Origin: a virus | Reading direction: 5' to 3' (one strand) | DNA: 20,813 nt | Virus record (IMG/VR): IMGVR_UViG_3300025112_000239 | Span: 1 to 20,813 of that record | Part shown: piece by piece, positions 2 through 17,800 of the stretch | How the letters are laid out: every line of letters starts with the position of its first letter | Position numbering within the stretch: position 1 is the stretch's first letter | Position numbers and translations under genes: made by a program | Notes under the pieces: model-generated | What the model was told of the DNA's origin: nothing | The model's database searches: none | Seen by the model: the letters and a program-made list of their open reading frames with translations, nothing else

Positions 2-481
2 ATTAAATATAACGATATGAGCGGCGACATTTCAAATGGTCAAATTATCGTAACAACTGAACAAGTAGAAAAAATAACAGCTATATTTCAAGAACTTTTT
101 GCTGTTGGATTTCAAATTCAAGAGATTTCGCCTATTAACAAATATGGTGGAGATGATAAAAAGAGCATGCGCGCAAATAATACTTCTGCTTTCAATTGTC
201 GAGCAACCACCGGTGGCTCAAGCTTCTCTCAGCATAGTTATGGCGAAGCTCTCGATATTAATCCGATGTTGAACCCATATGTCAAAGGTAGCACGGTAGA
301 TCCGGAAGAAGGCAAGCCATATGCTACAAAAACTGCTGCAGAGCGAGACGAGCTTGCAAAAACACAACCGGGCATAGTTACATCTGATATTGCAGCAATT
401 TTTATAAAACACGGATGGCAATGGGGGGGCAACTGGAGAAGCCTTAAAGATTGGCAACATTTCTCTGTAAATGGTAAGTGA
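2..481 (+). CDS. M15-family peptidoglycan peptidase, 5' end missing
   Basis: Zinc peptidase of the M15 (D-Ala-D-Ala carboxypeptidase-like) family, which cuts peptide bonds in peptidoglycan; in this context it is probably the virion or baseplate wall hydrolase. Numbering from the ATG at 17, the segment NNTSAFNCR (54-62) precedes the metal motif SQHSYGEALDINP with likely zinc ligands His73 and Asp80. The C-terminal GWQWGGNW (133-140) and DWQHFS (145-150) supply the third ligand His148 and a likely catalytic Asp145. All expected active-site residues are present, so the enzyme should be active. The reading frame is open to the left edge (codons from base 2: I-K-Y-N-D before the first Met), and those residues fit the strand that usually precedes GQIIV in this family. 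The ATG at 17 is therefore probably internal, and the peptidase may be the C-terminal domain of a longer tail protein. The gene ends with TGA at 479-481. The family call is secure; the role in the virion is inferred from neighbours. Confidence 0.88.
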   Translation: MKYNDMSGDISNGQIIVTTEQVEKITAIFQELFAVGFQIQEISPINKYGGDDKKSMRANNTSAFNCRATTGGSSFSQHSYGEALDINPMLNPYVKGSTVDPEEGKPYATKTAAERDELAKTQPGIVTSDIAAIFIKHGWQWGGNWRSLKDWQHFSVNGK

Positions 482-522
482 AAGGTGATAAACTATTTTT
501 AGATAATAGTAAAGGAAAATAA

Positions 523-1599
523 ATGGGTAAAAAACCAATATATACCGACCAGTTGAAGGCGGCTAAACAACAGTTAATGAAAGCCGGCGTTTCAAAAGAA
601 GACGCAGACGCTATGATGGATCGAGCCGGCTGGGATCCTAAAAAATTAATAAATGATCCCTTTTTCAAACCTAAATTGATCCCACAAGATAGTGGCTTAT
701 ATCATACTTTTGTACAGGCGCCCCCCATAGTTTTTAAGCAAGCCGACAATGAAGTTATATACCCCGCCAAATCAGCGCAAGCACAAATTGTATTTGGTAC
801 AGATCGAGGAGACTCCACACGTTCAGGGTGGGGAGCTAAAGGCTCCCAACGTTGCGCCAGTATTGATTTGGTTGTTGGTAGAATGGCTAGTGTTCGCAAA
901 GGCAAAGGTCCAAAGCTAGGCGGCGATGGAAATGCGCTTGTTGATAATAGCTTTGTTTCTGATGCAGCCAGAATCTATATTAGCCAATTAACAGATATTG
1001 ATAAGAATTTTGGAATAACAGAAGGGGCATATGGAGATCAGCATCAACGTTCTGGCATAGGTATCAAGGCTGATGGTGTTAGAATTATCGGCAGAGAAGG
1101 AATAAAAATAGTTACGGGGAAGGCTAACAATTTTACTGGTTTGGGTATGGCTGGTGAACGCAACTCTTTAGGTGGCAAAACTAAACAACCAGCGCCTCCA
1201 ATTGAGCTAATCGCCGGAAACAACTCAGAGACCAAAGAAGTATTTGGTGGACTATTTAACACACCAGAAATGTATAATAATTTACAAGGCGTGGCAAGAG
1301 GAGAAAACACAGTAGAATGTTTTAGAGATCTAGCTGAAATTATTGATGAAATGTGGAGCGCAGTATTCAACTTTATGATTTATCAGATAATTTATAATGC
1401 CGCAATTGGCCCAGCATTATCTCCTCTTCCTGCGGCTCCAATAGTGGCAAGTGCTGCTTCAGCAGCTATTACAGCACACATAAACTTTTCACTTAATCCT
1501 CTTTATCATACGCGAACCAATAAAACAATGTGGGAACTCAATCACTTACAACGTGCAGGTTATCGCTACGTCGAAAGTAGGAATGTTTTTTCAACATAG
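523..1599 (+). CDS. Phage structural protein, candidate spike/hub-associated beta-repeat protein
   Basis: 358-aa protein, probably part of the tail tip or baseplate centre. The N-terminus (1-50) is charged and helical, with a small KAGVSKEDADAMMDRAGWD segment. The middle is beta-rich. Residues 177-199 carry short alternating strands (GIGIKADGVRII, then GREGIKIVTG) of the kind seen in the beta-helical needle of gp5 and VgrG spike proteins, though only a few repeats are visible. Around 285-320 is an Ala-rich hydrophobic stretch, and the C-terminus (WELNHLQRAGYRYVESRNVF) is compact and aromatic. A good Shine-Dalgarno AAAGGA (511-516) sits 6 bases before the ATG, and 41 bases separate it from the peptidase gene. 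It ends with TAG. From memory the middle and C-terminal blocks resemble structural proteins of marine T4-like phages, but I could not search. The gene is surely real; the spike role is inference from the repeat style and its place next to the wall hydrolase. Confidence 0.6.
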   Translation: MGKKPIYTDQLKAAKQQLMKAGVSKEDADAMMDRAGWDPKKLINDPFFKPKLIPQDSGLYHTFVQAPPIVFKQADNEVIYPAKSAQAQIVFGTDRGDSTRSGWGAKGSQRCASIDLVVGRMASVRKGKGPKLGGDGNALVDNSFVSDAARIYISQLTDIDKNFGITEGAYGDQHQRSGIGIKADGVRIIGREGIKIVTGKANNFTGLGMAGERNSLGGKTKQPAPPIELIAGNNSETKEVFGGLFNTPEMYNNLQGVARGENTVECFRDLAEIIDEMWSAVFNFMIYQIIYNAAIGPALSPLPAAPIVASAASAAITAHINFSLNPLYHTRTNKTMWELNHLQRAGYRYVESRNVFST

Positions 1600-1608: not shown

Positions 1609-4600
1609 ATGGCTGACGAAGAAATAGTAATAGAAAAAAAATCATCGTTTTTATATTATCAAGATAAGAATCGCGATGGATTAATTGATGTCTGTGAAGA
1701 TCTGGTGGATGTTGAAGAAACACCTGCATGTCTTCCATGTTCTCCTAATCCTAATGCGCTTGTGCCTGATTGGCGTAACAAAACTATTGATGAGCCGTTT
1801 CTCAATGAGAAAACATGCGAATATCAAATTACAGTTAAAACCAAATATTCGAATACGGCGCCAGAAGAAATAATAACAAGTTCTGAAGAAAATCAAGATG
1901 CTATTGATGCCGAAATGGAAGGTCGATTTGATCAATATGTTGAAGCTGCCATAAAATCTCTTTTAAGTGTATACGACAAAGACGACTCTGATGAATCAAA
2001 AGCTATAGTTCAAGATGCAATTGAATACACCAAGTTTTCTTTAGATCCTCGTCCTCTTTCTAGATTAAAGCTTTTGTATTCTGTACCTTTTGATGTTTTA
2101 AACAATCTTCCCGATGCAGAACCAGAAGACGAAGATGCCGACGAAGATGATGAAGACGCCGGCGACACAACTGTGGTGTATATGGCTAATGACTTAAAGC
2201 CGCGTTTAATTAAAGTTCGAAAAAGTTTAAATCTCTATAATCGGTATTTAAAGGTGTACCGCGCGATGGAAGGAGGGAACGTATATATTGATGAATCTCA
2301 CTTTACTGCACAAACAGGAGCCAATACCGGCACAAAAATACCAAAAGTTTTTCCATTAGACTTATATGGTGATGCTGGATTTTTTCCAACTTCGTTATTA
2401 GGAAAAACTATAGTACAGTTAGATAAGTTTTTAGTAGCAAAAAACTATAATTTACCAGGCGTGGGAGGCTTAAAGGGGTCTCGTAACGATAGAGTTGTCA
2501 AGATGGAGTTTAAATTTAGTGAAAAGTTTAAACTTAAACGATTAAAAATATGGACGGAAGGTTGTGGCGAGAAGCCGATAATGTTTAATAAAAAGCTCGA
2601 TCCTCTTCGTTCACAATCTGCATGGAAAGACCCGACTGCCATGGCGTATTTTGCTCGTTTAGAAGCGATGGAAACTGATCTCACGGCGAGAACCCCAAAA
2701 CCATGGCTAGAGTTTATTAAAGAACATACCTATCCTCTTGTGTATGATACTACAAATCCATTAGATTCGAATACTGATCCAGAAAATACTATTGGTAGTT
2801 GTATAGCTGACAATTTGGCCAAAGAAGCAAAACAACTTGGTCAAGATATTCTTGATGATGTATTCGGGATTGGAGATGCGATTGCTGCTGCTTTTCATAA
2901 AAATCTATGTCGTACTTCTTTAGGAGAGGTTATTGAAGACGATATTGAGCTAGGAAAAATATACGATCCAAATAGCAAAACTACAAAAAGTTTATATGCC
3001 ATGGCCCAAGAACAGGCTTTTAAACAGCTTGAACAAGATGATCAAGTTTTTATGCATTTGTGCGCTAGAATATTAGGCATCACTACTGGCGCAGGCGAAC
3101 CAAATGCTGCGATGGATATGATTTGGAAAGAGGGATTTGACAAGATTAAACTTTGTGGTTTATTTGATTTATTAATGGATGCTATTGGTTGTTTATTGGG
3201 GGGTATGGAGCTTGAGGCGGCATTGGCTAGTATGTTAAAAAGTGCCTTTCAATCAATGGGAGTTGACAACTTTGGTGATTTGTTTATTGGATTACCACCA
3301 GAGAAGCAACAAGAGCTAGATGCTTTAGTTCAAAAAAAGCTTGAAAGCGGAGATGTGTTCAAAGAAGGTTCTGTTAATCAACAGACATCTGATACGATTG
3401 CGGGCACGCTAGAATGGACAAAGCCATGGGAAGCATTATCAGAGGATGTTACAGAGGCCGAAAAAGAAAAAATGACTTCAGAACAGAAAAAGGCCGCCCG
3501 CAAGGCCGCGCGAACGGAAAGACAGAACAAAAGAAAAGAATCAATGGCCGAAACGATGACAGCTTCAGAAATGCAGGAAACATCTGAATCAAGTCGCAAG
3601 ACACTATCGCAACAGTTTGATGTCGGCTCCGAAGAAAACCAAAGTAAGCTTAGCCCTAATGTTTTAATGGAAGCATATTTCTTAGCCATATTGGAGATAT
3701 ACCAGGATAATCTTCTTGATTTGCTTGATAAACTTAATAGTTTTCCTGGGGCCCCAATTGTAAGTAAACTCCTAGCGATGTTAGATTGTCCGCGCCCGCC
3801 GCTCTTTAATCCTAGCTTTATGGATTTTATTAAAGATATTGAGCTTCCGTTTTGTAGAAATATGAACGACATTACTCTTCCAAGACTAGAGAATCCTTTT
3901 GGGTGGCTTCCAAAAATAAAAGATATTATCGCCATCCTTTGGTACGTAATGAAGATTGAGATTAACAAATTAATCATGAAAATTTTAATGAAATTATTGG
4001 TCAAGATTTGTGAATTAATTGGAAATGCGCTTTGTAAAGCACTAGAAGCCACCGGCGCCATGGCAATGGCATTAGCCGGCGGCCAAGGTAGAGATGGTGT
4101 TGCTACTATTATTAAAAATGCAATATGTGGCGAAGATGCGGATAAAGAACAAGTTGAAGACACTATTATTGATTTATTTGATTCTTTGGGCAACGGCGCA
4201 TCTTCTTTGGCGGATCGTGATCAAATATTGGGAATGGCCGAAGATCTTTCGTCGGGCACTACACAAACAGAAATGATGAGTGCTTTTTTGGGTGATCCAT
4301 CACAAGAATTTTTAGATATTTTTGAAACAATTATCGAATATGAGTATCCAGATTTACAAGATGCATTTCCGAATCAGGATAAAATAGGTAATTTCTGTGC
4401 TAATGTGGGCAATTTAATGCCACTAGATTTTAAAGAACAGATGCAGAACGCTGTTGATAATCCAGCGGGCCCCCCAATGCCAGCCAATCCTTCTCTTTGT
4501 GCCACGCCAGAACAAATCGAAGATTTTAAAAATCTAAGATGTCAACTGTTGTCTGGGCGCGCCACCAAAGAACAATGTAATAAGATGTTTGATGAGCTTC

Positions 4601-7600
4601 CCACCGCTCAAGACTTAGATGATTTGGGAGCTATTCTTCAAAAAGGAATCCCAAACTATCTTTCTGACAATATGCCGCCTTTGGTTTCCGATCCTGGATG
4701 CGATAACGGCTTAATTCCATTTGAGTCTGAAGAGCAGAAAGCTGTTGTATCGGCAGCATTAGGCGGAGATCTTGAACAATTAAAGATTGCTTTCTCGTTT
4801 GATATACTTGGTAATGGCCCTGGCGAAAAAAAATGGGGATTAATCAATATGGTTCTTTCTGATACAATGGGAATGCCATATACAGCACACCAACGAAGAG
4901 TTTTTAACAGAAAAAAATGGGTTGATTTTTATATAGATGAGAGCGACACTCCCGACTTCGAAGCGGAAACCCGCGTAGCCAACGTTATGAAACAAAAGGG
5001 AGCCTACCCACAAGAAGTGGCAGGACATTTAAGAGATGAGCTAACAGCATTGGACACCACATTTATTTCAACTAATGATTATCAAGATGATAAACCCTAT
5101 AAAAAATCATTTGATTCTTTGAATATCGGCAAGCATGGCAAAAGTATAGATTTATTAACGTTACCGGATTTAGGATATAACTATGAAACATTAGTGGACT
5201 ATGAAGCAGAGAATATCGTCTTTGTTGAAAAAGCCAGAAAGGAAACTGCCGATGCATCATTGTCTTTTAGGGATAATGCCAAAGGAGATACCGATCAAGA
5301 TTTCTCCTTTGGATTTGATATGGAGTTTTTTCTTTCCGATCTGATGTTGACTACCGGTTCATATGCCGCACAGCGACCCGGTGATAATGCTAGAATTAAA
5401 ATCACAAATAAATTTAATGCTAATGCAGATTTAGATTTTTCTACATTACCATTTATGACAGGAGCAGAAAGAAGGGACATGAAAAAGGAAGCGAAAGACG
5501 CAGGTATTATTTCTGAGTTAAAGTTCGAATTCTTAACTGTCGATGACACACTTGATGGTGCGGATTTGGACAGTTATACAGAATTTTTGTCTACCTTTGA
5601 ATCAAAATCTTCTTATATGCCGCAAATCATACTTTTAAAGGAAATTTTAAATGATAATGGAGCTAGTTTATCAAATAGCGAAATTAAAACATTCCATGAT
5701 ACGTTTATGTCTAGTATTTTTTCGACTTTCGCTACAGAGATAGCAGAAAACGAAGCTGCATTTACATACGGTGCGGTATTTGATGGTCTAGTCAAAGAGG
5801 ATGTTGAATATGTCAACGAGGATGGTGAAGATTATCATGACGCTACAAACGAAGATGGGGATCCTATTACGAATTCTGATATGATTTTAGGCGTCAGTAG
5901 AATGCAATATGAAGTTGATAATGGCCAACGCGACGACGAAAATAGAGTTTTTTACTTAGACCCGGCACAATATGGTGGCTCATATATGAACCCGCCGCTG
6001 TACATAGCTCCGTTACCAAATGAAGGGTGGCTTGGTTTTGTAGATGTAATGTTCCCCGAGATAAGTCCATGTAAACCACAAAGAACTGATTTGATTGATT
6101 TTGAAGATATTCAGAGTAGAATAGATGAAATTTATCCATCTTTGCCGGAAGATGAAAGATTAAAATCTGATCCAGATTGTATCAAAGAACTTCCTTATGA
6201 AAGAATCTTGGAAAGATCATCTGTAGCAGCAATTGAGGGACTTATAACGGCCGCAATCCGAATATTCGTAAGTGTACATTTTATTAAAGCCATAGCAACA
6301 TTTACGAAGTTCTATCCTAAGTTTACTGAAACTTATAGTTCACTTTTCGCGCAATATATTGTTGAAGATATGGAAAGACATTTTAAGAGCGCACAAAAAG
6401 CTGGTTGGGAATTTTTCAATCCTTTTAAAGATAGTGAATTTTGGTATGCGTTTCTAGAGCAGTCTGTTCAGACTTATGCAAGAAGAGTTGATAGTGAGGG
6501 AATTACGCCGCCAACAAGCACTTATGATGCTTTGGCCAATTTAAGTCGAAAGGTAAAAAAATATGACTATCCTTATCGTCCCGATCTACAGGAAGCGAAA
6601 GGGCTAACTGCTGGTCTTGCCGCAGCGGCAGCAGTGACGGTTGCCACTGGGGGCGTTGCCGCCGGCGCCGCCGCCGCTGTTGGTACCGCCGCAGCAAATG
6701 CCGCCACTGAAGGTGGACGAGTGAGTCTCTTTACTACTTTAAAAGGATATCGATCAACTTTAAACCTAGAGGCTGTCCAAGAAACAGAAGAGGATGCTAA
6801 GCTGGTACTTAAAGAGTTGGTTAATGAACAATTAAATTATATGGGTGAAAAGTTTATCGAGAATCTAGAGATTGTTGGAATGACGCCTGATGTTTTTGAT
6901 TTGGATTATTATGTTTTCGAAAATTTAACACAAGGTAGCAGCCTAACATTAGGACAGGATATAAAAGAAGAGGTTGTTAATCTCCCAACTGAAGAATCCG
7001 AAGAAACTGAAGAGCTATATACTGCCGGTAGTGAATTCTCAAATACTGAAACAGGAGAGATGTACACGGGATATTATCACGTTACAACAGATGAGAATGG
7101 CGACACGACATATATGGCAGGAGAGTTCCACACAGAGGAGGCTCATGCAACACTTCGACCATTAGCAAATCAGGTAATTGTTCCAATTGGAGATGTAGAA
7201 GATTATGGATATGAACCCGAAGACAACGAAGAGCAACCATTTTTGATTGAGAAATACATAAGTATCAACGGCACAAAATATTCATCTGATGATGCTATTG
7301 ATATTATCATGGGAAATGATGGAACTTTATTATTGTCCGATGTTTATCCAGGTACTTTAGAACATGTTCTTAATGAAGCTGGAGGAGTGGTTGGGTTGAC
7401 CGGAGAGTTAGGAGTTAGATATGGATTACAATTTTCAGTAGTGATCGGAGGAGAAGCACATCCAGCTACAACTGTAGAAGTAGATGCGCTTGATTTAGCG
7501 ATTAATCAAACTCCTCCATTTGAAGGAGAGAGTAAGCTTTTATTGTGTCTAATTAATATGTTGAAAAATGATAGTGTATATAAACTTGTAGCACAATATG

Positions 7601-8100
7601 TCTTTCCAATGAAAAAAATGCTGGCAACGTTGGCAATATATAATAGCGAGGCTTTCTTGCCGTCTATTGGAGAAATCACAGTAGCCGAAGATGCAGCATA
7701 TGGCGCCGAAGCCTCCGATATTGATGGAAAGCCAGGGATGAAAGTTGTGATAGATGACGACGGAAACTTAACCACAGAGGCCACCGCTGAAGGATGGGCG
7801 AATGTCAAAGACCGTGCATCTAGTCCTTTCAACTTTGTTAGAGAATGGGACAACTGGGATCAAGTATTGTTAAGAAAATCAAAAAGTAGACTAAAGAAGC
7901 TCTTTAAGCCACATTATAATTCTAGAGAATTTGATCCCGGAGATGACAAAACAGATAGTCCAGGGAAAATTCTTTTAAATAGCTTACGTGAATCTTTCAA
8001 GTTTCCTGCTGGTATGCAACTACTTCCATGGTGGAAGCGTAGGCTTGTTCGGCCCAATCCTTTTAATTCTAAGGGAGAACTTTGTGAAAAGGAAGATTGA
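1609..8100 (+). CDS. Very large virion (baseplate/tail) protein of unknown function, EF-hand-like N-terminus
   Basis: 2163-aa protein, not assignable to a named function. Features in order: an EF-hand-type loop at 19-30 (Asp19, Asn21, Asp23, Gly24, Asp27, Glu30), then Cys41 and Cys44 in CxxC spacing and Cys70. An acidic run follows at 169-186. A charged helical region near 610-680 is rich in Glu, Lys and Arg. A hydrophobic block with several predicted amphipathic helices lies at about 772-825 (LWYVMKIEINKLIMKILMKL). Cys residues are scattered throughout, several near Pro. There is an Ala/Gly-rich stretch at 1665-1703, and the C-terminus is basic (WWKRRLVRPNPF near the end). From memory, blocks such as FMDFIKDIELPFCRN and CKPQRTDLIDFEDIQ resemble huge virion proteins of T4-like marine phages; this is unverified. 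It lies between the spike/hydrolase genes and gp25, so a baseplate or tail role is likely. It ends with TGA, 26 bases before gp25. No signal peptide is visible. A tape-measure role is not favoured because the long uniform coiled-coil pattern is missing. Confidence 0.7.
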   Translation: MADEEIVIEKKSSFLYYQDKNRDGLIDVCEDLVDVEETPACLPCSPNPNALVPDWRNKTIDEPFLNEKTCEYQITVKTKYSNTAPEEIITSSEENQDAIDAEMEGRFDQYVEAAIKSLLSVYDKDDSDESKAIVQDAIEYTKFSLDPRPLSRLKLLYSVPFDVLNNLPDAEPEDEDADEDDEDAGDTTVVYMANDLKPRLIKVRKSLNLYNRYLKVYRAMEGGNVYIDESHFTAQTGANTGTKIPKVFPLDLYGDAGFFPTSLLGKTIVQLDKFLVAKNYNLPGVGGLKGSRNDRVVKMEFKFSEKFKLKRLKIWTEGCGEKPIMFNKKLDPLRSQSAWKDPTAMAYFARLEAMETDLTARTPKPWLEFIKEHTYPLVYDTTNPLDSNTDPENTIGSCIADNLAKEAKQLGQDILDDVFGIGDAIAAAFHKNLCRTSLGEVIEDDIELGKIYDPNSKTTKSLYAMAQEQAFKQLEQDDQVFMHLCARILGITTGAGEPNAAMDMIWKEGFDKIKLCGLFDLLMDAIGCLLGGMELEAALASMLKSAFQSMGVDNFGDLFIGLPPEKQQELDALVQKKLESGDVFKEGSVNQQTSDTIAGTLEWTKPWEALSEDVTEAEKEKMTSEQKKAARKAARTERQNKRKESMAETMTASEMQETSESSRKTLSQQFDVGSEENQSKLSPNVLMEAYFLAILEIYQDNLLDLLDKLNSFPGAPIVSKLLAMLDCPRPPLFNPSFMDFIKDIELPFCRNMNDITLPRLENPFGWLPKIKDIIAILWYVMKIEINKLIMKILMKLLVKICELIGNALCKALEATGAMAMALAGGQGRDGVATIIKNAICGEDADKEQVEDTIIDLFDSLGNGASSLADRDQILGMAEDLSSGTTQTEMMSAFLGDPSQEFLDIFETIIEYEYPDLQDAFPNQDKIGNFCANVGNLMPLDFKEQMQNAVDNPAGPPMPANPSLCATPEQIEDFKNLRCQLLSGRATKEQCNKMFDELPTAQDLDDLGAILQKGIPNYLSDNMPPLVSDPGCDNGLIPFESEEQKAVVSAALGGDLEQLKIAFSFDILGNGPGEKKWGLINMVLSDTMGMPYTAHQRRVFNRKKWVDFYIDESDTPDFEAETRVANVMKQKGAYPQEVAGHLRDELTALDTTFISTNDYQDDKPYKKSFDSLNIGKHGKSIDLLTLPDLGYNYETLVDYEAENIVFVEKARKETADASLSFRDNAKGDTDQDFSFGFDMEFFLSDLMLTTGSYAAQRPGDNARIKITNKFNANADLDFSTLPFMTGAERRDMKKEAKDAGIISELKFEFLTVDDTLDGADLDSYTEFLSTFESKSSYMPQIILLKEILNDNGASLSNSEIKTFHDTFMSSIFSTFATEIAENEAAFTYGAVFDGLVKEDVEYVNEDGEDYHDATNEDGDPITNSDMILGVSRMQYEVDNGQRDDENRVFYLDPAQYGGSYMNPPLYIAPLPNEGWLGFVDVMFPEISPCKPQRTDLIDFEDIQSRIDEIYPSLPEDERLKSDPDCIKELPYERILERSSVAAIEGLITAAIRIFVSVHFIKAIATFTKFYPKFTETYSSLFAQYIVEDMERHFKSAQKAGWEFFNPFKDSEFWYAFLEQSVQTYARRVDSEGITPPTSTYDALANLSRKVKKYDYPYRPDLQEAKGLTAGLAAAAAVTVATGGVAAGAAAAVGTAAANAATEGGRVSLFTTLKGYRSTLNLEAVQETEEDAKLVLKELVNEQLNYMGEKFIENLEIVGMTPDVFDLDYYVFENLTQGSSLTLGQDIKEEVVNLPTEESEETEELYTAGSEFSNTETGEMYTGYYHVTTDENGDTTYMAGEFHTEEAHATLRPLANQVIVPIGDVEDYGYEPEDNEEQPFLIEKYISINGTKYSSDDAIDIIMGNDGTLLLSDVYPGTLEHVLNEAGGVVGLTGELGVRYGLQFSVVIGGEAHPATTVEVDALDLAINQTPPFEGESKLLLCLINMLKNDSVYKLVAQYVFPMKKMLATLAIYNSEAFLPSIGEITVAEDAAYGAEASDIDGKPGMKVVIDDDGNLTTEATAEGWANVKDRASSPFNFVREWDNWDQVLLRKSKSRLKKLFKPHYNSREFDPGDDKTDSPGKILLNSLRESFKFPAGMQLLPWWKRRLVRPNPFNSKGELCEKED
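1663..1698 (+). other. EF-hand-type calcium-binding loop (within the 2163-aa protein)
   Basis: Residues 19-30 read DKNRDGLIDVCE. This fits the 12-position EF-hand loop: Asp at 1, Asn at 3, Asp at 5, Gly at 6, Ile at 8, Asp at 9 and Glu at 12. Only one loop is seen, and the flanking helices are short, so it may be a dockerin-like or isolated calcium site. Calcium binding is inferred from the pattern alone. Confidence 0.65.
6601..6717 (+). other. Ala/Gly-rich low-complexity segment coded by GC-rich DNA
   Basis: Residues 1665-1703 of the 2163-aa protein are almost entirely Ala, Gly, Val and Thr with no charged residue before the final Glu-Gly-Gly. The DNA here is locally GC-rich (runs of GCC and GGC, e.g. 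6658-6679), unlike the AT-rich flanks. It could be a small-residue membrane helix pair, a glycine-zipper segment or a flexible linker inserted between two charged helical regions. Confidence 0.6.
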
Positions 8101-8126: not shown

Positions 8127-8495
8127 ATGTCTTCATTTAGTGTTGCACTTCCATTAGAGTTAGACGACAGTGACGGCTTTGTAATGTTGAAAGACGTTAA
8201 AAGCTTAATCAAACAAAATTTTAAAATGCTTTTATTGACTAATCCAGGCGAAAGAGTAATGGAACCTGATTTTGGAGTAGGGATTAAGCGTTTTTTGTTT
8301 GAGAATTTTGGCTCTGGAACCGAGGCGCAGATAGATACAAAAATTAGAGAACAAGTAAATATCTATTTACCTGTTATAAAAATACTACGTATTTCTTTTG
8401 GAGTTAGTAATCCGGATCATAATCATTTGGGATTTTCCATAACTTATTCTATTCCGGACATAGGGCTCAGAGATTTATTAGAATTTACTATTTAA
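8127..8495 (+). CDS. gp25: Baseplate wedge protein gp25 (GPW/gp25 family)
   Basis: 122-aa protein of the gp25/phage P2 W family (T4 gp25 has 132 aa). In contractile tails gp25 sits in the inner baseplate, joins the wedge to the first sheath ring and starts sheath assembly. The N-terminus is a short beta segment (SVALPLELDDSDGFVMLKD). The family core follows: LLTNPGERVMEPDFG (36-50), with the Glu-Arg-Pro type signature (Glu42, Arg43, Pro47) and Phe49-Gly50, then the helix IKRFLFENFG (53-62). The C-terminal half is helix then beta strands, ending in a hydrophobic strand (LLEFTI). Length, motif and neighbour gp6 all agree. It ends with TAA, 17 bases before the gp6 start. The same family occurs in type VI secretion (TssE) and in extracellular injection systems, but the T4-style gp6 next door favours a phage. 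Confidence 0.9.
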   Translation: MSSFSVALPLELDDSDGFVMLKDVKSLIKQNFKMLLLTNPGERVMEPDFGVGIKRFLFENFGSGTEAQIDTKIREQVNIYLPVIKILRISFGVSNPDHNHLGFSITYSIPDIGLRDLLEFTI

Positions 8496-8512: not shown

Positions 8513-10309
8513 ATGTCAGATGATCAAAAAAAGATTATTCCAATTGATTATACTCATAGGGAATATTCTAGTATCCGCCGCGACTTAATGGAAATTGCTG
8601 AAAGACACTATCCAGATAGTTTTCAGGATTTTAGCGAAGCATCTTTTGGCTCTTTGATGTTGGACGCTGTTGCTTATATTGGCGATCAATTGTCATTTTA
8701 CCTAGATTATAATGTTAATGAATCCTTTTTAGATACTGCTTATCAATATAGCAATGTTCTTCGACATGGTAGAATTTTAGGATATAAAAACACTGGACGC
8801 CCCTCAACTTATGGAACGGTTGCTTTGTATATTATTATACCATCATCAAACACTGGTATAGGACCTGATACAGCATATATTCCAGTTTTAAAAAGAGGAA
8901 CGCGTTTCACATCCACTACTGGATTAAACTTTCTTTTAACAGAAAATGTAGATTTTGCGGATCCAAAACTCCCGGTAGTTGTGGCTCGCGTCGATACTGA
9001 TACTGGGGCCCCAACTCATTATGCTATTAAGGCATATGGGAATGTTGTTTCTGGCTATTATAACCAACAAGAGATAGAATGTGGCCCGTATGAAAGATTT
9101 AAAAGAATAAAACTGGCAAATACAAATATATCAGAAATTATTTCTGTTTTGGATTCTCAAGGAAATGAATATTTTGAAGTAGATTATTTAGCTCAAGATA
9201 TGGTTTTCAAAGAAATCTCAAATACTAATTTTAGAAGTGATAATGTGCCGTCTATTTTAAAGCCTTATCTAGTATCTAGAAAATTTATTGTTGAAAGAGA
9301 TAGATTTTCGACGTATTTGCAATTTGGAAGCGGAAAAGCTGGAGAGAGTGATGTCGTGGCCGATCCACAATCAGTTGCTATAGATGTGTTTGGAAAAAAC
9401 TATATCACAGATACAACTTTTGATCCAACGAGACTCTCAAAAAATATTACGTATGGTATTGTTCCATCTAATACTACGTTGACAATCGTTTATAGAATAA
9501 CAAATCCGACAAATGCTAACGTTGGGGCCAACTCAATAACAGGAATATCAAACAGCGAATTTGATTTTAATGATCGTGCCTCTTTAGCTTCTAGCACGGT
9601 TCAAACAGTTATTAATTCTTTAGAAGTGAGCAATGAAGAACCAATTATTGGAGACGTTTCTAATGCTTCGACGGGCGAATTAAAAAGAAGAATTTTTGAT
9701 ACTTTTCCAACACAAAATAGAGCAGTTACACAAGCAGACTACGAGAGTTTGGTTTATAGAATGCCGGCTAAATTTGGCGCTATAAAGAGGTGTTCAGTTC
9801 AACGAGATCCAACTGCTAATAAAAGAAATTTAAATATGTACGTGCTTTCTGTTGATCAACAAGGTTTTTTAACACAAGCTAATTCAACCATTAAAAATAA
9901 TTTAAAAACATGGATTGATCGTCATAGAATGATAAATGATACAGTTGATATTTTAGATCCATACATTATTAATTTGGGAATTGAATTTATTGTTAAGCCT
10001 ACTAATAATGCAGACAAATATCTTTTGCTCAATGCATGTGTCGCCGCGCTAAAAAAGAAGTATTCTGTACCGTTTTTTATTGGAGAGCCAATTTCTATTA
10101 GTGATATATACACCACTTTAAACAAGGTATCTGGAGTGTTAGATGTGATAAAAGTTAAGTTGGTGACTAAAACAGGCAGTAATTATTCCGGAGTAGATAT
10201 CGAAATCAATAAAAACCTATCTCCAGATGGTTCTTCCTTGATTGCTCCAAAAAATGCGATTATTGAAATTAAATATCCACAAACCGATATTAGAGGAAAG
10301 ATTAGATAA
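8513..10309 (+). CDS. gp6: Baseplate wedge protein gp6 (baseplate J-like)
   Basis: 598-aa protein, close in length to T4 gp6 (660 aa). gp6 dimers form the ring that holds the baseplate wedges together and changes diameter when the sheath contracts. The N-terminal part (about 10-110) has the gp6-type pattern: DYTHREYSSIRRDL, then FSEASFGSLMLDAVAYIGD and LDYNVNESFLDTA. The middle is beta-rich. A baseplate J-like segment follows, with the signature RAVTQADYESLVYRMPAKFG at 403-422, then an alpha/beta C-terminal domain that recurs in wedge proteins (LGIEFIVKP and the strands after it). The Shine-Dalgarno AAGAGGA (8499-8505) is 7 bases before the ATG. The stop TAA (10307-10309) shares its last A with the next start (TAATG), so the downstream protein is likely translationally coupled. 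The assignment as gp6 rather than P2-like J rests on the N-terminal region and length. Confidence 0.87.
   Translation: MSDDQKKIIPIDYTHREYSSIRRDLMEIAERHYPDSFQDFSEASFGSLMLDAVAYIGDQLSFYLDYNVNESFLDTAYQYSNVLRHGRILGYKNTGRPSTYGTVALYIIIPSSNTGIGPDTAYIPVLKRGTRFTSTTGLNFLLTENVDFADPKLPVVVARVDTDTGAPTHYAIKAYGNVVSGYYNQQEIECGPYERFKRIKLANTNISEIISVLDSQGNEYFEVDYLAQDMVFKEISNTNFRSDNVPSILKPYLVSRKFIVERDRFSTYLQFGSGKAGESDVVADPQSVAIDVFGKNYITDTTFDPTRLSKNITYGIVPSNTTLTIVYRITNPTNANVGANSITGISNSEFDFNDRASLASSTVQTVINSLEVSNEEPIIGDVSNASTGELKRRIFDTFPTQNRAVTQADYESLVYRMPAKFGAIKRCSVQRDPTANKRNLNMYVLSVDQQGFLTQANSTIKNNLKTWIDRHRMINDTVDILDPYIINLGIEFIVKPTNNADKYLLLNACVAALKKKYSVPFFIGEPISISDIYTTLNKVSGVLDVIKVKLVTKTGSNYSGVDIEINKNLSPDGSSLIAPKNAIIEIKYPQTDIRGKIR
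10292..10297 (+). promoter_or_regulatory. Ribosome binding site inside the gp6 gene
   Basis: AGAGGA at 10292-10297 lies within the last codons of gp6, 11 bases before the ATG at 10309. With the TAATG overlap it explains how the next gene is started without any intergenic gap. Confidence 0.5.
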
Positions 10310-11880
10310 TGGCCATTAAAAAGTATATTGCCGATGCGGATACAACTATAGTTAACGCTTTTCAATCTGATTTATCTACGCGCGCCACTGGCTCCAACGC
10401 CGGCGAAGCAGATGTTCTTGAAACGTTTTCGATTTATGGTAGACAGTCCACTAGTTCCGCTGAGCTTTCTAGAATTCTAATTAAATTTCCAATAACAAGC
10501 ATAACTACAGACAGAACTAATGCTGTAATTCCCGCTAGCGGGAGCGTTAGTTTTTATCTTCGTATGTTCAATGCAGGCCATTCTAGAACGGTACCAACTG
10601 ATTATAAAATAAGTGTTTCTGCTGTATCTCAATCTTGGCAAGAAGGGGAGGGTTTAGCTTTAGAGCTTGGACAGTACAAAGATCTTACGAGAGGAAATCC
10701 CGGCGCCAACTGGATGAGCGCTTCGAACACAACGGCATGGACGACGGTTGGAGGCGATTATTTAACAGGTTCAGCCACTGCTGTTAACTTGATTTTTTCT
10801 AAAGTTGTCGATCAATCTTTTACAACTGGATTAGAAGATATAGAAGTTGACGTTTCGGATTTTGTTGAAAAATGGATAGCTGGAGCAATTGGCAATTATG
10901 GCTTTGGTGTTTTTCTTTCTTCTAGCTATGAAGCATATTTCTCTAGTTCGACTGCGTTGCCCACGGGAAGTGTACTTCAAAATGTAAATGGCGCCACAGA
11001 TTCATATTATACGAAACGATTTTTTGCAAGAGGCTCACAGTATTGGTTTAAGCGCCCAGTACTTGAAGCTCGCTGGGATGATTCGGTTAAGGATAATCGT
11101 GGTGGTTTTTATTATAGTAGCTCACTGGCGCCCGCGTCAGAGAATCTTAATACAATTTATTTGTACAACTATGTTAGAGGAAGATTAAGAAACATTCCCG
11201 TTATTGGAACTGGAGAAATTCTAGTTAGTCTTTTCTCTGGTTCGTATGATAATAGCTCTCCTTCGGGATCAAAACTTGTACTACACAATGGTAAATATAA
11301 TGTAACTGGTGGTTACGTTTCCACAGGTATTTATTCGGCATCGATTGCAATTACTGCAGCTTCTACTCCTTTAACAGCACTATATGATGTATGGCATAGC
11401 GGAAACGTTGGTGAATCTACAACTGGTGTAGAATATTTTACCGGTTCTATGACGCCGCTTTCGTTGAATGGCGCCCAGTCTGCTGCTAAGCCGGTTTATT
11501 ACTTGAATATTACTAATCTAAGAGATAAATATCGTGCGGACGAAACCGCGAGGTTCAACTTATATGTAAGAAATAAATATTGGAATCCAACTATTTATAC
11601 AGTGGCGCAGTCTTCGCCGCCAACTACAACAATACCTAGCGCATCGTATAGAGTTTACAGAGTATTGGACTCATACGAGGCTGTTCCTTATGGAACTGGT
11701 AGCGATTTACACACTGTATTATCATATGATGTTTCTGGAAATTATTTTGATTTTGACATGTCTCTATTAGAGCCAGGTTATGCATATGCACTTAAATTTT
11801 CTTTTTATGATTCTGGATTACAAAGTTGGATGGAGCAAAACGAAGCTTTTAAGTTTCGAATAGAAGATTATGAGTATTAA
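10309..11880 (+). CDS. Beta-rich virion protein with DNRLRE-like N-terminal domain
   Basis: 523-aa protein, probably an outer baseplate or fibre-attachment component. Residues about 6-205 match the DNRLRE style, a jelly-roll module common on bacterial surface proteins: IADADTTIVNAF (6-17), SRILIKFPITSI (54-65), SWQEGEGL (109-116), GNPGANW (129-135) and VDVSDFVEKWIAGAIGNYGF (180-199). The middle (about 280-420) is rich in Ser, Gly, Thr and Tyr and looks like repeated beta sandwiches. The C-terminal part (about 400-523; YYLNITNLRDKYRADETARF, then MSLLEPGYAYALKFSFYDSG) recalls virion proteins of T4-like marine phages, from memory only. It overlaps gp6 by one base and the following gene by 11 bases, so the three are probably made in fixed proportion. 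It lies where T4 has gp7, but shows no recognisable gp7, gp8 or gp9 similarity. Carbohydrate binding is possible but unproven. Confidence 0.7.
   Translation: MAIKKYIADADTTIVNAFQSDLSTRATGSNAGEADVLETFSIYGRQSTSSAELSRILIKFPITSITTDRTNAVIPASGSVSFYLRMFNAGHSRTVPTDYKISVSAVSQSWQEGEGLALELGQYKDLTRGNPGANWMSASNTTAWTTVGGDYLTGSATAVNLIFSKVVDQSFTTGLEDIEVDVSDFVEKWIAGAIGNYGFGVFLSSSYEAYFSSSTALPTGSVLQNVNGATDSYYTKRFFARGSQYWFKRPVLEARWDDSVKDNRGGFYYSSSLAPASENLNTIYLYNYVRGRLRNIPVIGTGEILVSLFSGSYDNSSPSGSKLVLHNGKYNVTGGYVSTGIYSASIAITAASTPLTALYDVWHSGNVGESTTGVEYFTGSMTPLSLNGAQSAAKPVYYLNITNLRDKYRADETARFNLYVRNKYWNPTIYTVAQSSPPTTTIPSASYRVYRVLDSYEAVPYGTGSDLHTVLSYDVSGNYFDFDMSLLEPGYAYALKFSFYDSGLQSWMEQNEAFKFRIEDYEY
11862..11866 (+). 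promoter_or_regulatory. Weak ribosome binding site deciding the start of the giant gene
   Basis: AGAAG at 11862-11866 is only 3 bases before the ATG at 11870, which is a poor arrangement. An in-frame TAG at 11861-11863 rules out an earlier start, and the next in-frame ATG is far downstream. Start at 11870, inside the end of the previous gene (stop at 11878-11880), therefore most likely depends on translational coupling by an 11-base overlap. Confidence 0.45.
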
Positions 11881-14800
11881 AAAACTTTTTGAGTCTACAG
11901 ACAAATCAACAAATTACCTTTCTGACACTACTGAAAAAGAAGTATTTGAAGAAGTAGAGTCGGCAAGAAACGTTGAAGCAATTGCTGAAAAGCAAAAAAC
12001 ATATATACCACATGTAGATTATTCCGATCCAAGCAATTTTGTTAAGTATGGTTCTGCGTATCTATATTACAAATCTGCAATAGAAAGAATTATCGATTAC
12101 TATCCATATGATGGTTCAGATGCAGAAGTAAATGAGTTTTATAATAAATCATTAGATATTGAAAAATATATATTCAATAATCACTATCCACGAACAAATG
12201 GTTATGCTGTTTTAAGTTCTCAGGGGTGGGGCACCAAGACCCTCACTAGTGGCAGCTATAGCAATTCAGATAGTGATGAATATATTACCTTTTATGGTGG
12301 TCCCTCAAGCGGGTCATACACAACTTTGGCCGACGCCTTTTCTAATCCAACAAACAATAAGCCGGCCCAATCAACCATATATGATACCGACATATATACA
12401 ACTGCAAAACTACCAACTGACTATGGCCATGGCACCAGAGAGTCAAACCTAAAATCAGATTTTGACAAGGGAGTTACGGTTGAGTTTTGGTTTAAGACTG
12501 GCTCAGTAGCCAGCGCCGGCAAATCTCAGAAACAAGTAATATTTGATATGTGGAACAATGTTGCAACATCCAGCGCCGATTATGGACGAATTACAATTGA
12601 TTTTCAGGCAAACGCAGCAGGCACCCCATTTCGTATTACGGCTCAGTCTGGTAGTCCAGAAACTGCAAATTTTAAAGGCATCCAGGGACAATCGATTGGC
12701 AACAATATCACAATAACAACTATAAGTGATTGGAAACATTATGCATTTGTTTTTTATAACACGGGCTCTGGGCAAAAAGACCCCAATGATCATTTACGGC
12801 CCCCAGGTTCTAATGAGGATCTAGTTGTCAAGTTATACGTTGATGGTGTCTTAAATGATACCAACTTATATATATCGTCTAGTATGGCCGGCGGTGGGCC
12901 CACCGGCAATGGCGCCATTGGCGAACTTAACTCTAAGAATATGGTTGGAAGAATTGGCGCTCTGCAAACTGCACCTTCGGGAACTGTTACGCCCACATCT
13001 TTGTTAACAGAGATGGCCGGATTTGGCAAGCTAAGTGGCTCAATTGATGAGTTCAGATTTTGGAAGGTTAGGCGAAACTCTCATCAGATTGCAAAGAACT
13101 GGTTTACTCATGTTCGAGGCGGAACTAATACTGATATCTCTAATACAACTCTTGGCGTTTATTATAAGTTTAATGAAGGTATCACCCAAACATCGAGTAT
13201 CGATAGTAATGTTTTAGATTATTCTGGAAGAATCACGAATGGTACATGGACTGGATACGTTGCAGATTCTAGAAATATTGGTTCTGCAATAGTTTCTGCT
13301 AGTGCTGCTTCTTCAGAATATAAAGATCCGATTATCAGAACCTACCATCCTGACGTTGCAAAACTAAAATCTGGATTATTGAATAGCGGATCGTATCATG
13401 ATTCAACTAGTATTTCTTCTGTAGTGAGTCTTCTTCCAAGTTGGATTATAGAAGACCAAGAAAATACTGATGGAAACATTCAAAAGCTTTCTCACATTCT
13501 TGGCGCATATTTTGATAAACTTTATCTTCTAATTTCGCAAGTTCCAAAATTTAGAAACCAAACTTATACGAGCGCCTCACATTCGCCTTTGCCCTTTGCG
13601 CAGCACATGCCTCAATCGCTGGGATTATATACTCCTGAAATATTTGTTGATTCAGATATATTGGAACGATTTATGAATCGTACTCAGACAAAAATGTTTG
13701 AAGGCGATTTAACAGAAACCAAAAACCTAATTTATTTAAACCTTTATAACAATTTAGCTAATATCTATAAAGCCAAAGGAACTGAAAAAGCCATTCGAAA
13801 TGTATTTAGTTGTTTTAATATCGATGAAAACATAGTAAAATTAAATGCATATGCCGATAATCAAGTCTATGAACTAAAGAACAATCTTGTTCAAACTCTT
13901 GTTAATAAATCATCAATAAACTTTAGCCAGAATAATCACGAAGGAGTGGTATATCAAGCTGTTAGTGCTTCAAACCCTAATGCTCGTGGATATATTTCTG
14001 GTAGTTCCAAGGGCACTGTACATGTTGCAGAGGGTGCTGAAGATAAATATGGTTTTACCGTGGAAACAGATATTCGCTTCCCCAGCTTCAGAGTGTCTGA
14101 TCCGATTGACAGAAACTTTGAGGAAGTCTCTTTGTTTGGCATGGGCACTGTTTATGCTACAGGCGCCGCCGGCCACAATGGTACCAATACTACATGGTTG
14201 GGTGGTTATGGCAGTGCCTCTTATGATTATACCAACTTTCAAGTATTTGCTGTTCGTGATACTCCTTATTCAAAAAACGTTTATTTTAAAATATCTTCTT
14301 CATATGCGCCAAACTATTTTCCAACGTTGACAAGTAGTGTTTTCTTTGGTGTTTATGACGATCAGCGTTGGAATATTTCTGTTCGACTAAGGCCGCAAAA
14401 TCCTTTTATTAATATTGTGTCTGGTGCTGTAAGTCCTAGTTATGATCTGGTTTTCCAAGGTGTTAACTCAGAACTTGGGACTATTCAGAATAGTTTTACG
14501 ATGACTGCTTCTCTACCCCAGACCAATGCCCGCAATATTTTAAGAGCCCCAAAAAGGTTATATGCCGGCGCCAGAAAGACAAATATTACCGGTACAGTAT
14601 TACAAAAGTCTGATGTTTATTTCAGCAATATTAGATATTGGGGAAAATCTCTTGAAGATAGAGATTTAGAACAACATATATTTGATATTCAAAATCGTGG
14701 AATATCGGGTTCATATCAACATATCTCTCCGAAAGATCCCAATCTGGGCAATGCGGATGTGCTTAACTCCAATATGTTGGTATTAGATTGGAGCTTTGAT

Positions 14801-17800
14801 GATGTCACCGGCTCCAGTGATACTGGCAACTTTTATGTAACAGATATGAGTTCCGGCTCTGTAGAGTTACAAAACAACTATGGATGGGTTGGTAAGTTAT
14901 ATGGTTATCAACATACTGGCTACGGAACTGCTTTCTCAACTTCATCTAAGGATGTTGTACCTACTGAAAAAGTAAACTCGTATAAATTTATAGATCCCGA
15001 AAGAGTCATTTCTTCGGATATGATTCAGATTGTTTCTGAAGATGAAAAAGTTTTCGGAGTTCATGAGGTTAAACCAGATTACATTTATTCTTTAGAAAAA
15101 AGTATGTATAATGCTATTTCGGAAGAAATGCTTACTTTCTTTGCTGGAGCGGCGGATTTTAATAATATTATTGGAGAGCCAGTTAATCGATACCGTGATA
15201 GATATAAGACTATGGAAAAACTCAGAGAGATTTTCTTTAGAAGGGTTTCTGATGTAAAACAAGTAGAAAAATATATGGCCTATTACAAGTGGTTCGATGA
15301 CGCTTTGGCCGAAATAATTGAACAACTAATTCCAGCTTCTTCTGGATTTGTTGGAAACTCTCTCAATATCATTGAGAGCCATGTGCTAGAAAGAAACAAA
15401 TATCAAACAAAGTTTCCAACATTAGAATTTAAAGCCGATGACCCAGGTGGAATAATAACAGGATGGGAGTTTAACCAATGGAACTGGATTGAAAACGGCG
15501 TCCCCATACCTACCTCTCCACGTAAAACTGGAGAACGTAAAGATTTTTGGCTGAAAAGGGCAAAGAGAGATTCGCCTGAAATCACAACCGGCACTGCTTC
15601 GATTGATAACACAAGAGAATTGTACCGCCGCGTTAGCTGGTCCGTACCAACTTTAACAGCTAGCAGTCCGCTTCTGAGTTCATTCAACGGCTCGACGTAT
15701 GTTGGAGATAATTACAAAAGCGAGGTATTTGCTAAGACTTATAACTTAGAGATTGGCAATCCTCGTAGTCGTGATAATCACTATCGCACTTTTAAGGCCG
15801 GCACTAACTTCACTGATAATAAAAACATTCACTTTACTTATAATGCAGTTTATCCGGCCGGCCCCGTTAATACTGAGAATAATGTGTTTGTTCCAACAAA
15901 TGTTTTATTAGGCTTTGCTGAAGATATGACGCCACTCCCAGAAACTAATGATTGGGAAATTGATAATCGTTTCAAAACGCTTGTTAAAAGATATATTCCG
16001 ATTAAGCACGGTAGAGATTATAAAGGCGGCCTAGGCTACAGTAATGTTAAATCATCTTTTGCTTTCCCTTTTAATATTATCAGTTCTTCTGTAAAAACTG
16101 GATATAACAAGTATGTCATTGATACTGTAACAAACAGCATAGAAATTACAAATCTTCATCATGATACATATGGGGAAGATATGGAAATACCCCTGCAAGG
16201 ACCATTTACAAATTATGCTGTAGGCGGACATCAATCAAGACATGTTAGGCTAAACACTGGTTCTGACAACTACAGAAATCGTCCCGAAGCATGGAAACTA
16301 ATTCTCGGTGGTTGTCCTCTAGGTACTGGTGCTCTTGGTCTTGCCGGCGCAGATTATCCTTGGCCAGAAGCCAACACTAAAGGCGACCGTCCATATCCGA
16401 TGACCGCTTCACAAAAAGCTGTTTATTATCGCGACGAACTGGCAAAAAGACCAGTAAATATTCGCAATATTCATCTTGCAACCAGTTCTAATGGCACTAT
16501 TTTAGGCAACTATGATCAGTTATATGATGTAGTGAACTCAGTAGGAGCTTTCTTAACGCCAAGAAGGTTTGTTGATCAGCGCCCAGACTTTACTCAAGTG
16601 TTTAATAGCGGTGTAGATGTTAAAAAAGCAAATATTGTTGGCAACTTTATGGGCCTACGTCGGACAGACGCTGGACATTTTGATTTTGGACTAACATATG
16701 CACCTACTCAATTTACGGGTTCTGGGCAAAATAGAACCATAATAGTGGGACGCTTCCGCCACCAAGGCGGTCCAGAGGTGATGTCTCGTGGATTTCAAGA
16801 TATTCGCGGATCCGAATACTCACAATATAACGCATTTAACTATCGAAATTTAACTGTCCTTAAACCATCTCAGGGTCCAGCCGGGACAATTTCGGAAGCA
16901 ACTGGTGCCGGCATACCGGGTATTAAGGTTTTCGACATTCATAAGAAAGACTATGGCTTGTATTCTCATTTGGCTCGTCATACTGCAAGATTTGGAAGAG
17001 ATAGCTTGGTGTACCCTGGATCCGATGGTTTGGCGCGAGATCCTTATAATTTAAATAAATCATTTATGGAATATGGGGGGTTTGGTGCATATCGCTCAGA
17101 AAACACTTTGCAAGCTTGGTGGAGATTAAAGGAAAATGTATCTTCTGCCGGAACTGTTCCAAATGCCGCCGATGGCAGCACCGCAGCTACGGATGGTGCA
17201 TTTGATGCTTCTGGGGATCGACCAGCATATTCGAGAACATTGTTTCCTTCTAAGTATGTTCAAACTGCCAGTTGTACTTTTGATGGGAGCGATGATGGTG
17301 TAAATGTCGGAGGCGCCGGAACTTGGAATGCGATTATAGGTACTACGGCTGCTTCAACTAAGAAGATAACGCTATCTGCTTGGGTGTTTAAAACTGGCGA
17401 TGGAGGTGGAAATCTTGGTCGCATAGCAGATTTTGGCTCCACCGATCTTGCGATATATACTACTAGTACGGAACAAATTTATTTTCTAGCAAAATGGAAC
17501 GGCAACAATGCAGTTTATTGGAAAACCGATGCTGGAGCATTTTCATTAAATACTTGGAGTCATATCGTCGTTACATATGATGCTGCTGATTCCTCTAATG
17601 ACCCAAAGATATATGTTAATGGCGTTGACCAAAATGCTGCATATTCTAGCGGAACTCAAACTGGAGCTTATTATGGAATCCAAACTGGGAATTCTTATAT
17701 AGGAAACAGAAACGACGGAGCTAGAGCCTTTGCAGGACAAATATCAGATGTTGCTGTTTGGAATTCTATATTATCTGCTGATGAAATTAAAGCAATATTT

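Follow-up and report, generated by a model that had tools for sequence, protein, structure and literature searches.

A putative two-gene tail-tip module with an exchangeable wall-enzyme cassette beside T4-type baseplate genes of uncultured phages

In T4 phage, one gene product, gp5, carries both a lysozyme and a needle. The stretch of DNA analysed here—hereafter, the window—raises the question of whether the same task can be divided over two genes and carried out with a different enzyme. The window is a viral record of 20,813 bases (IMGVR_UViG_3300025112_000239) with the gene order M15 peptidase, 358-aa protein, 2163-aa protein, gp25-like protein, and gp6-like protein, all encoded on the plus strand. 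The M15_4 peptidase domain occupies positions 2–481. The 358-aa protein is the spike candidate and has its own gene at 523–1599, as judged by its ORF, relatives, alignment, and model. The two ORFs are separated by a spacer of 41 nt, in which the ribosome-binding-like hexamer AAAGGA can be read directly at 511–516, just 5' of the ATG. The 2163-aa protein (1609–8100) lies between the spike gene and the gp25 gene, and an ORF of 2109–2446 aa stands at its place in eight listed relatives. It is followed by a gp25-like baseplate wedge protein (8127–8495; PF04965, E 4.5e-14) and a gp6-like one (8513–10309; phrog_6, E 1.2e-17). Because of these two wedge genes, the spike locus is assigned to a contractile-tail baseplate operon. 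The far part of the window (11870–20812) encodes a 2981-aa protein that is open at its 3' end and features a Laminin_G_3 domain at residues 1826–1974 (E 2.2e-21).

The enzyme of the window is by its profile a member of the M15_4 family: The ORF matches PF13539 (Peptidase_M15_4) with an E value of 6.7e-22 and a score of 78.3 bits (cut-off 25), with near-full coverage of the model. The residues H78, D85, and H153 are present—the first two in the motif HSYGEALD (pattern H..G.A.D, residues 78–85, positions 233–256) and the last in the motif QHF (residues 152–154, positions 455–463)—and we take them to be the metal-site residues of the M15 family. A peptidase function on peptidoglycan is putative. 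The ORF is open at base 2; hence, it is a fragment and not callable as a complete separate enzyme gene. The initial annotation had described an M15 gene directly preceding a gene with needle-like repeats, and of this description the family and the adjacency stand, but the first gene is cut at its 5' end. Close relatives of this M15 protein were not found in viral contigs by a pattern scan and exact matching, so the N-terminus of the window's enzyme is not recoverable. By phmmer, it matches none of the other upstream proteins and groups with none at E < 1e-3. From the architecture of the relatives described below, the fragment is the putative C-terminal half of a larger protein, with an OB domain presumably ahead of the M15 domain.

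Relatives of the 358-aa protein occur in 175 stretches of IMG/VR viral contigs; the best 80 of these 175 and the window form the 81 loci analysed. The nearest relative of the window is locus L010, with a spike that is 70% identical in the best segment. A search of 50,697 phage records gave no relative of the window's protein; a diverged spike of the family and one of its upstream proteins likewise had no match there. A pattern-limited scan of GTDB bacterial and archaeal genomes was negative as well. Among the openly licensed papers listed by full-text searches, the titles and abstract starts contain no description of this split or of a cassette exchange. PMC12619734 deals with uncultured phages of aquatic habitats whose core includes gp25, gp6, and a putative peptidase.

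The gene order around the spike is conserved. Wherever at least 8 kb of downstream DNA is available, which is the case for 65 loci including the window, gp25 and gp6 follow, with gp25 located 6.3–7.8 kb 3' of the spike. With mechanically chosen start codons, the upstream gene and the spike gene are separated by 1–45 nt in 54 of 66 loci and by 60–100 nt in eight, and they overlap in four. None of the 81 spike ORFs is longer than 420 aa; thus, no fusion of spike and enzyme was seen, with three ORFs (L042, L056, and L074) being 5'-open at contig ends and not judgeable in this respect. Large related contigs of 104–203 kb carry one copy of the spike in each of 11 cases. The PAAR profile (PF05488), which may be insensitive, has no match in these 11 contigs, which are possibly fragments. 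A separate gp5-like protein elsewhere in the genome, a possibility raised by the initial annotation, did not appear as a Gp5_OB match in the proteins of the window, in 50 representatives of the upstream proteins, or in 12 large related contigs, possibly fragments as well, but this negative is weak because the profile misses the OB domain predicted here too. In two further loci, the DNA 5' of the module (L004:206–6821 and L008:1–6570) features, as judged by eye, long runs of genes resembling nucleotide-sugar epimerases, kinases, and synthases.

What the window probably lacks at its 5' end can be appreciated in the relatives. An ORF of at least 110 aa lies upstream of the spike in 72 of the 81 loci (window included), and these ORFs form 57 clusters. 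An N-domain is common to 62 of the 67 upstream ORFs that are not 5'-open, as defined by a match to at least three other clusters; the remaining five failed this test. BLAST matches between upstream proteins, counted in both directions and at no more than 70% identity, end by residue 220 in 2255 of 2635 cases. The C-termini of 51 cluster representatives, the window included, fall into 22 homology groups. The enzyme of the relatives is the C-terminal part behind the shared N-domain, and the split, hence, runs between OB plus enzyme on one side and spike on the other. The proposal of a split gp5 function in the initial annotation is partly borne out in that enzyme and spike candidate lie on separate genes (no fusion in 81 loci, three of them not judgeable), but it needs revision in that the enzyme of the relatives does not stand alone but follows a predicted OB domain.

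The shared N-domain was modelled with AF2 for the upstream protein of L010. Overall, this model has a mean pLDDT of 63.8 and a pTM of 0.41, with a poor C-terminal part. The N-domain itself reaches ten-residue pLDDT means of 76–96 over residues 11–160, except for 60 at residues 61–70, and is followed by a linker (residues 189–235) with pLDDT below 50. The VIA-align rows for residues 41–168, which we take to be OB folds, include a P1 baseplate chain (9vzk_q; Z 6.9, rmsd 3.0, 77 residues), an A-1(L) baseplate chain (8kea_D; Z 6.3, rmsd 8.9, 104 residues), and T4 gp5 (1k28_A; Z 6.2, rmsd 4.6, 90 residues), the latter placing residues 40–170 of the model on residues 6–127 of gp5. These OB matches lie at Z 6–7.5, a range that can reflect a common arrangement according to the tool, and T4 gp5 ranks 50th in a list with translation factors and ribosomal chains on top. 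Foldseek against the PDB returned weak ribosomal matches only, with a best E value of 0.025. An OB fold for the shared N-domain of the relatives is, hence, a well supported prediction, and a gp5-type OB fold is a plausible one for the L010 N-domain, with other OB folds not told apart from it by the model.

Some loci deviate from this architecture. L036 (391–1128) features an OB-only ORF of 173 aa and then approximately 215 nt without a notable ORF before the spike, so that either the enzyme has been lost or its gene is disrupted. In L009 (1–1272), an OB-type protein is followed by an additional 104-aa VanY-like ORF (E 0.04) before the spike, which may reflect a disrupted enzyme gene or one that has been split once more. 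The 602-aa upstream protein of L041 (2302–4110) carries the shared N-domain and a long hydrophobic C-terminus without a wall-enzyme match; by eye, this C-terminus resembles what we take to be the linker region of polymorphic toxins.

The C-terminal parts belong to several enzyme classes. The 57 cluster representatives minus seven fragments give 50 upstream representatives, among which Pfam matches at E 0.01 were obtained for VanY (13), M23 (4), Amidase_2 (4), M15_4 (3), Phage_lysozyme2 (3), DUF2272 (3), and SLT (1), the latter being weak with a best E value of 0.0036. Individual Pfam scans covered two batches of 10 of these representatives and some others. The matches of L014 and L068 lie below Pfam's own cut-off, and two families are matched by L015. 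Pfam lists DUF2272 as uncharacterised; one protein with this domain, L007, has an additional match to a PHROG endolysin (E 5.2e-05). At least 20 of the 50 representatives are without a Pfam wall-enzyme match at E 0.01—L010 among them, whose C-terminus is M15-like by a regular-expression motif and its cluster only. The statement of the initial annotation that the enzyme class is unlike that of T4 holds for the window with M15, and the relatives vary further, with M15/VanY, M23, Amidase_2, DUF2272, Phage_lysozyme2, and, weakly, SLT. The idea of M15 as the special swap was dropped, VanY and M15_4 together being the commonest class among the upstream representatives. The cassettes of L025 (8430–9884), L033 (2451–3899), and L072 (8330–9814) have a common WSEGCQV-like motif, which resembles what we take to be the active site of YkuD transpeptidases; L025 and L033, scanned singly, have no Pfam match.

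The distribution of these classes was mapped onto a quick tree of the spike with SH-aLRT support only. With labels that mix Pfam matches, phmmer clusters, and motifs, and with 14 of 61 rows unlabelled and not counted, the enzyme class changes at least 19 times over the 47 labelled rows, the minimum being seven. Shuffled labels gave a mean of 22.2 changes, with 19 or fewer in four of 200 shuffles, so the label is somewhat clustered. Restriction to Pfam-named classes, that is, removal of motif-only and unnamed groups, left 36 rows—some labelled only via a phmmer cluster with a Pfam-matched member—and 14 changes against a minimum of five. The starred branches alone force four changes for DUF2272; three each for M23, Amidase_2, and Phage_lysozyme2; and eight for M15.

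Close pairs indicate that the exchange is local. In L047 and L064, identity amounts to 88% over the initial 600 aa of downstream sequence, 76% for the spike, and 52% for the OB part, and their C-termini—of the DUF2272 and the SLT type, respectively—give no alignment. C-termini are likewise not alignable between L050 and L064 (M23 versus SLT type; spike 81% identical), L075 and L076 (Amidase_2 versus Phage_lysozyme2; spike 70%), and L013 and L024 (unclassified versus M15; spike 77%), whereas pairs of the same class, for example, L037 and L077 or L039 and L043, do align in this part. Taken together, the loci point to repeated exchange of the enzyme cassette within a two-gene tail tip rather than to a single replacement of lysozyme by M15.

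The second gene encodes a protein with a conserved but short repeat region. In 61 aligned sequences including the window, K182, D184, R187, and G199 are invariant, and I179, A183, G190, R191, E192, G193, K195, I196, and T198 are conserved to at least 90%. These residues belong to the octad-like stretch GIGIKADGV/RIIGREGI/KIVTG at residues about 177–199 (positions 1054–1119), which comprises approximately 2.5 octads. Similarity at a lag of eight residues has a z of 2.5 over 28 alignment columns and 1.9 on the window sequence alone (residues 176–200), and lag 15 is about equal to lag 8 (z 2.2 versus 2.5). No octad signal was found over residues 60–245 (z 0.8). The same lag-8 test gives a z of 7.1 for T4 gp5 at residues 428–575 and of −0.6 at residues 174–339. 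The needle-like repeats of the initial annotation are thus present and conserved, but the repeat is short and weak, so needle-like denotes here a conserved patch of some 2.5 octads and not a long regular needle. A long T4-style needle built from such repeats was dropped as a candidate in view of the weak lag-8 signal.

The AF2 monomer of the 358-aa protein is of moderate quality, with a mean pLDDT of 73.4 and a pTM of 0.55. It features a β-rich core (positions 781–1068) with predicted strands at residues 87–93, 112–118, 149–157, and 176–182, and a C-terminal helical hairpin (positions 1303–1545) with helices at residues 261–298 and 305–341; ten-residue pLDDT means are 71–87 in the core and 73–93 in the hairpin. 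In the repeat patch, a strand is predicted only at residues 176–182, and the model is poor at 191–210 (block means of 53). The trimeric β-helix on which the initial annotation had proposed to check the fold is neither shown nor excluded by this monomer. Pfam and PHROG give no family match for the window's protein, and PHROG gives scattered weak matches for the 61 aligned sequences, with at most two members each and a best E value of 0.00068. A search of PDB sequences with the first profile of the family had no match; a deeper profile returned two designed coiled coils, which were rejected as coiled-coil similarity. The VIA-align rows of the model, a search that barely probed its β part against the PDB, concern the helical residues 250–356 only and were rejected as a common arrangement. 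In BFVD, one strong viral match was obtained (A0A516LBS8; E 2.4e-15, TM 0.45), with an uninformative name.

A link to isolated phages comes from the neighbouring genes. The isolates with the best gp6 matches are Microcystis phage Mel-JY01 and Flavobacterium phage immuto, which encode a single protein between a homologous late-sigma-like gene and gp25/gp6. By eye, this protein has an OB-like start, then a β-repeat part, and then a helical C-terminus; a PHROG scan identified no enzyme family in it. The repeat part of the immuto family has a z of 3.9 at lag 7 and of 2.5 at lag 8. With hhalign, this one-piece family matches the window family at residues 253–284 of the hairpin region with E values of 0.0018 and 0.0013 and a probability of 15–19%, a match of approximately 32 helical columns. 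This match scores 33.9; the highest score among 60 column shuffles was 26.4, and the reversed profile reached 26.7. Profile comparison of the N-domains of the two groups gave no match. The match suggests common descent but does not prove it.

The M15/358-aa pair is best explained, with a probability of roughly 0.65, as a two-gene cell-puncturing module at the tip of a contractile phage tail whose baseplate genes are of the T4 type, the enzyme of the module being an exchangeable cassette. The observed parts are the M15 fragment, the two ORFs, the conserved synteny, the N-domain shared by the relatives, and the differing C-termini of close relatives, and they would work together in the following way. 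The first gene, cut in the window, would encode a collar domain with an OB fold that is joined by a flexible linker to a wall-degrading enzyme (an M15 peptidase in the window); the second would encode the needle or spike with a β-rich shaft and the C-terminal helical hairpin, probably as a trimer located in the virion. The OB ring would sit on the hub with the spike below it and the enzyme tethered beside the spike by the linker. Sheath contraction would drive the spike through the outer membrane of the host, where there is one, and the enzyme, anchored via its OB domain, would breach the peptidoglycan. The break that T4 introduces post-translationally between lysozyme and β-helix would, hence, already be laid down in the DNA, and recombination would have repeatedly replaced the enzyme, with the OB domain, the spike, and the baseplate genes staying in place.

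Two other readings of the parts were weighed against this module. An ordinary M15 endolysin encoded beside tail genes, with the 358-aa protein as an unrelated baseplate part, would agree with the labels of the PHROG matches of the M15 fragment, seven of nine being endolysin, and with an incomplete window ORF in which no OB domain is seen. It is, however, quite improbable, as the gene at this position encodes a fusion of N-domain and enzyme in the relatives, its place next to the spike gene and gp25/gp6 persists across changes of the enzyme, and in L010 the shared N-domain is followed by a C-terminus that is M15-like as judged by motif only. The 358-aa protein could also be another component of the hub or baseplate center, for example, a collar or a hub adaptor, with the real needle elsewhere; the few octads with their weak lag-8 signal, the long C-terminal helices, and the poorly modelled repeat patch would fit such a role. 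We consider this unlikely, given the single copy in each of the 11 large contigs, the lack of PAAR (11 contigs) and Gp5_OB (12 contigs) matches—with the reservation of possible fragments and insensitive profiles—and the weak profile match to the C-terminus of the Mel-JY01/immuto OB-spike together with the matching gene neighborhood.

A further alternative concerns the origin and is compatible with the two-gene module: The module may derive from a one-piece OB-spike protein like those of Mel-JY01 and A-1(L), into which an enzyme domain was inserted behind the OB part together with a new gene break, and not from the splitting of a T4-type gp5 with three domains. The isolates with the best gp6 matches do combine the OB-like start and the spike in a single protein, in which no enzyme was detected, and in Mel-JY01 a chitinase gene adjoins the one-piece spike gene, but the order of OB, enzyme, and spike equals that of T4, and none of the 81 loci is an intermediate. 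We regard this origin as somewhat less likely than not.

The two-gene module has a wider implication, which we regard as an even call: The maturation cut of T4 would be hard-wired in the genomes of widespread uncultured phages, and the enzyme would be a cartridge swapped among at least five Pfam classes (M15/VanY, M23, Amidase_2, DUF2272, and Phage_lysozyme2) and a weaker SLT type, plausibly tracking the chemistry of the host wall. With OB-enzyme collar and needle as separate genes, no protease would be needed. If true, this would be a natural case of the two maturation products of T4 gp5 being made separately, which makes the reason for a design of one chain that is then cut testable. The loci would also represent an inventory of wall enzymes compatible with a single tail-tip socket, which may record adaptation to host walls in uncultured phages and reveal the enzyme chemistries open to a contractile tail. 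According to one review (PMC6116005), virion-carried endopeptidases are almost exclusive to phages of Gram-positive hosts; the many peptidase cassettes found here would bear on this statement.

Compared with known systems, the window's enzyme shares with peptidase family M15 the Peptidase_M15_4 profile and the H..G.A.D and QHF motifs and is, from its relatives, likely fused to a tail structural domain. Mel-JY01 and immuto resemble the window family in the homologous late-sigma-like gene upstream, in gp6 downstream, and—by eye and by periodicity—in the β-repeat part and the helical C-terminus. They differ in having the OB-like start and the spike in one ORF without a detected enzyme, the chitinase of Mel-JY01 being a separate gene. 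Anabaena phage A-1(L) features the central spike gp25, with OB and β-spike in one protein, and the hub gp15 (PMC10966104). A-1(L) has an OB fold and a β-strand spike at the center of the baseplate and tail-tip wall enzymes including a peptidase, parts that are also proposed for the window family; unlike in the window family, its enzymes sit in the hub protein, and OB and spike form one protein (PMC10966104).

T4 gp5 has the same predicted parts in the same order as the relatives—OB, linker, wall enzyme, and needle—and both lie among baseplate genes. Its domains are OB (residues 1–129), lysozyme (174–339), and β-helix (389–575) (PMC4576200). It is one gene product, whereas the window and its relatives have two genes; cleavage of gp5 between Ser351 and Ala352 leaves T4 with the same two pieces (PMC3004832). 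The T4 enzyme is a lysozyme acting on glycan, that of the window an M15 peptidase, and those of the relatives belong to M15 or to one of several other classes. The gp5C part of T4 consists of eleven octads of the VXGXXXXX type in a long triple-stranded β-helix with a lag-8 z of 7.1; the window has approximately 2.5 octad-like repeats with a z of 2.5, modelled as a monomer only. T4 has a PAAR tip protein, and PF05488 was not matched in the 11 large related contigs, possibly fragments. Alignment to T4 gp5 with hhalign gave E values of 0.54–0.55, that is, no detectable sequence homology. As the sequence tests for gp5 membership fail, the module is not filed as a member of the gp5 family. With the order of OB, enzyme, gene break, and spike in the relatives equal to that of T4, it probably works like gp5.
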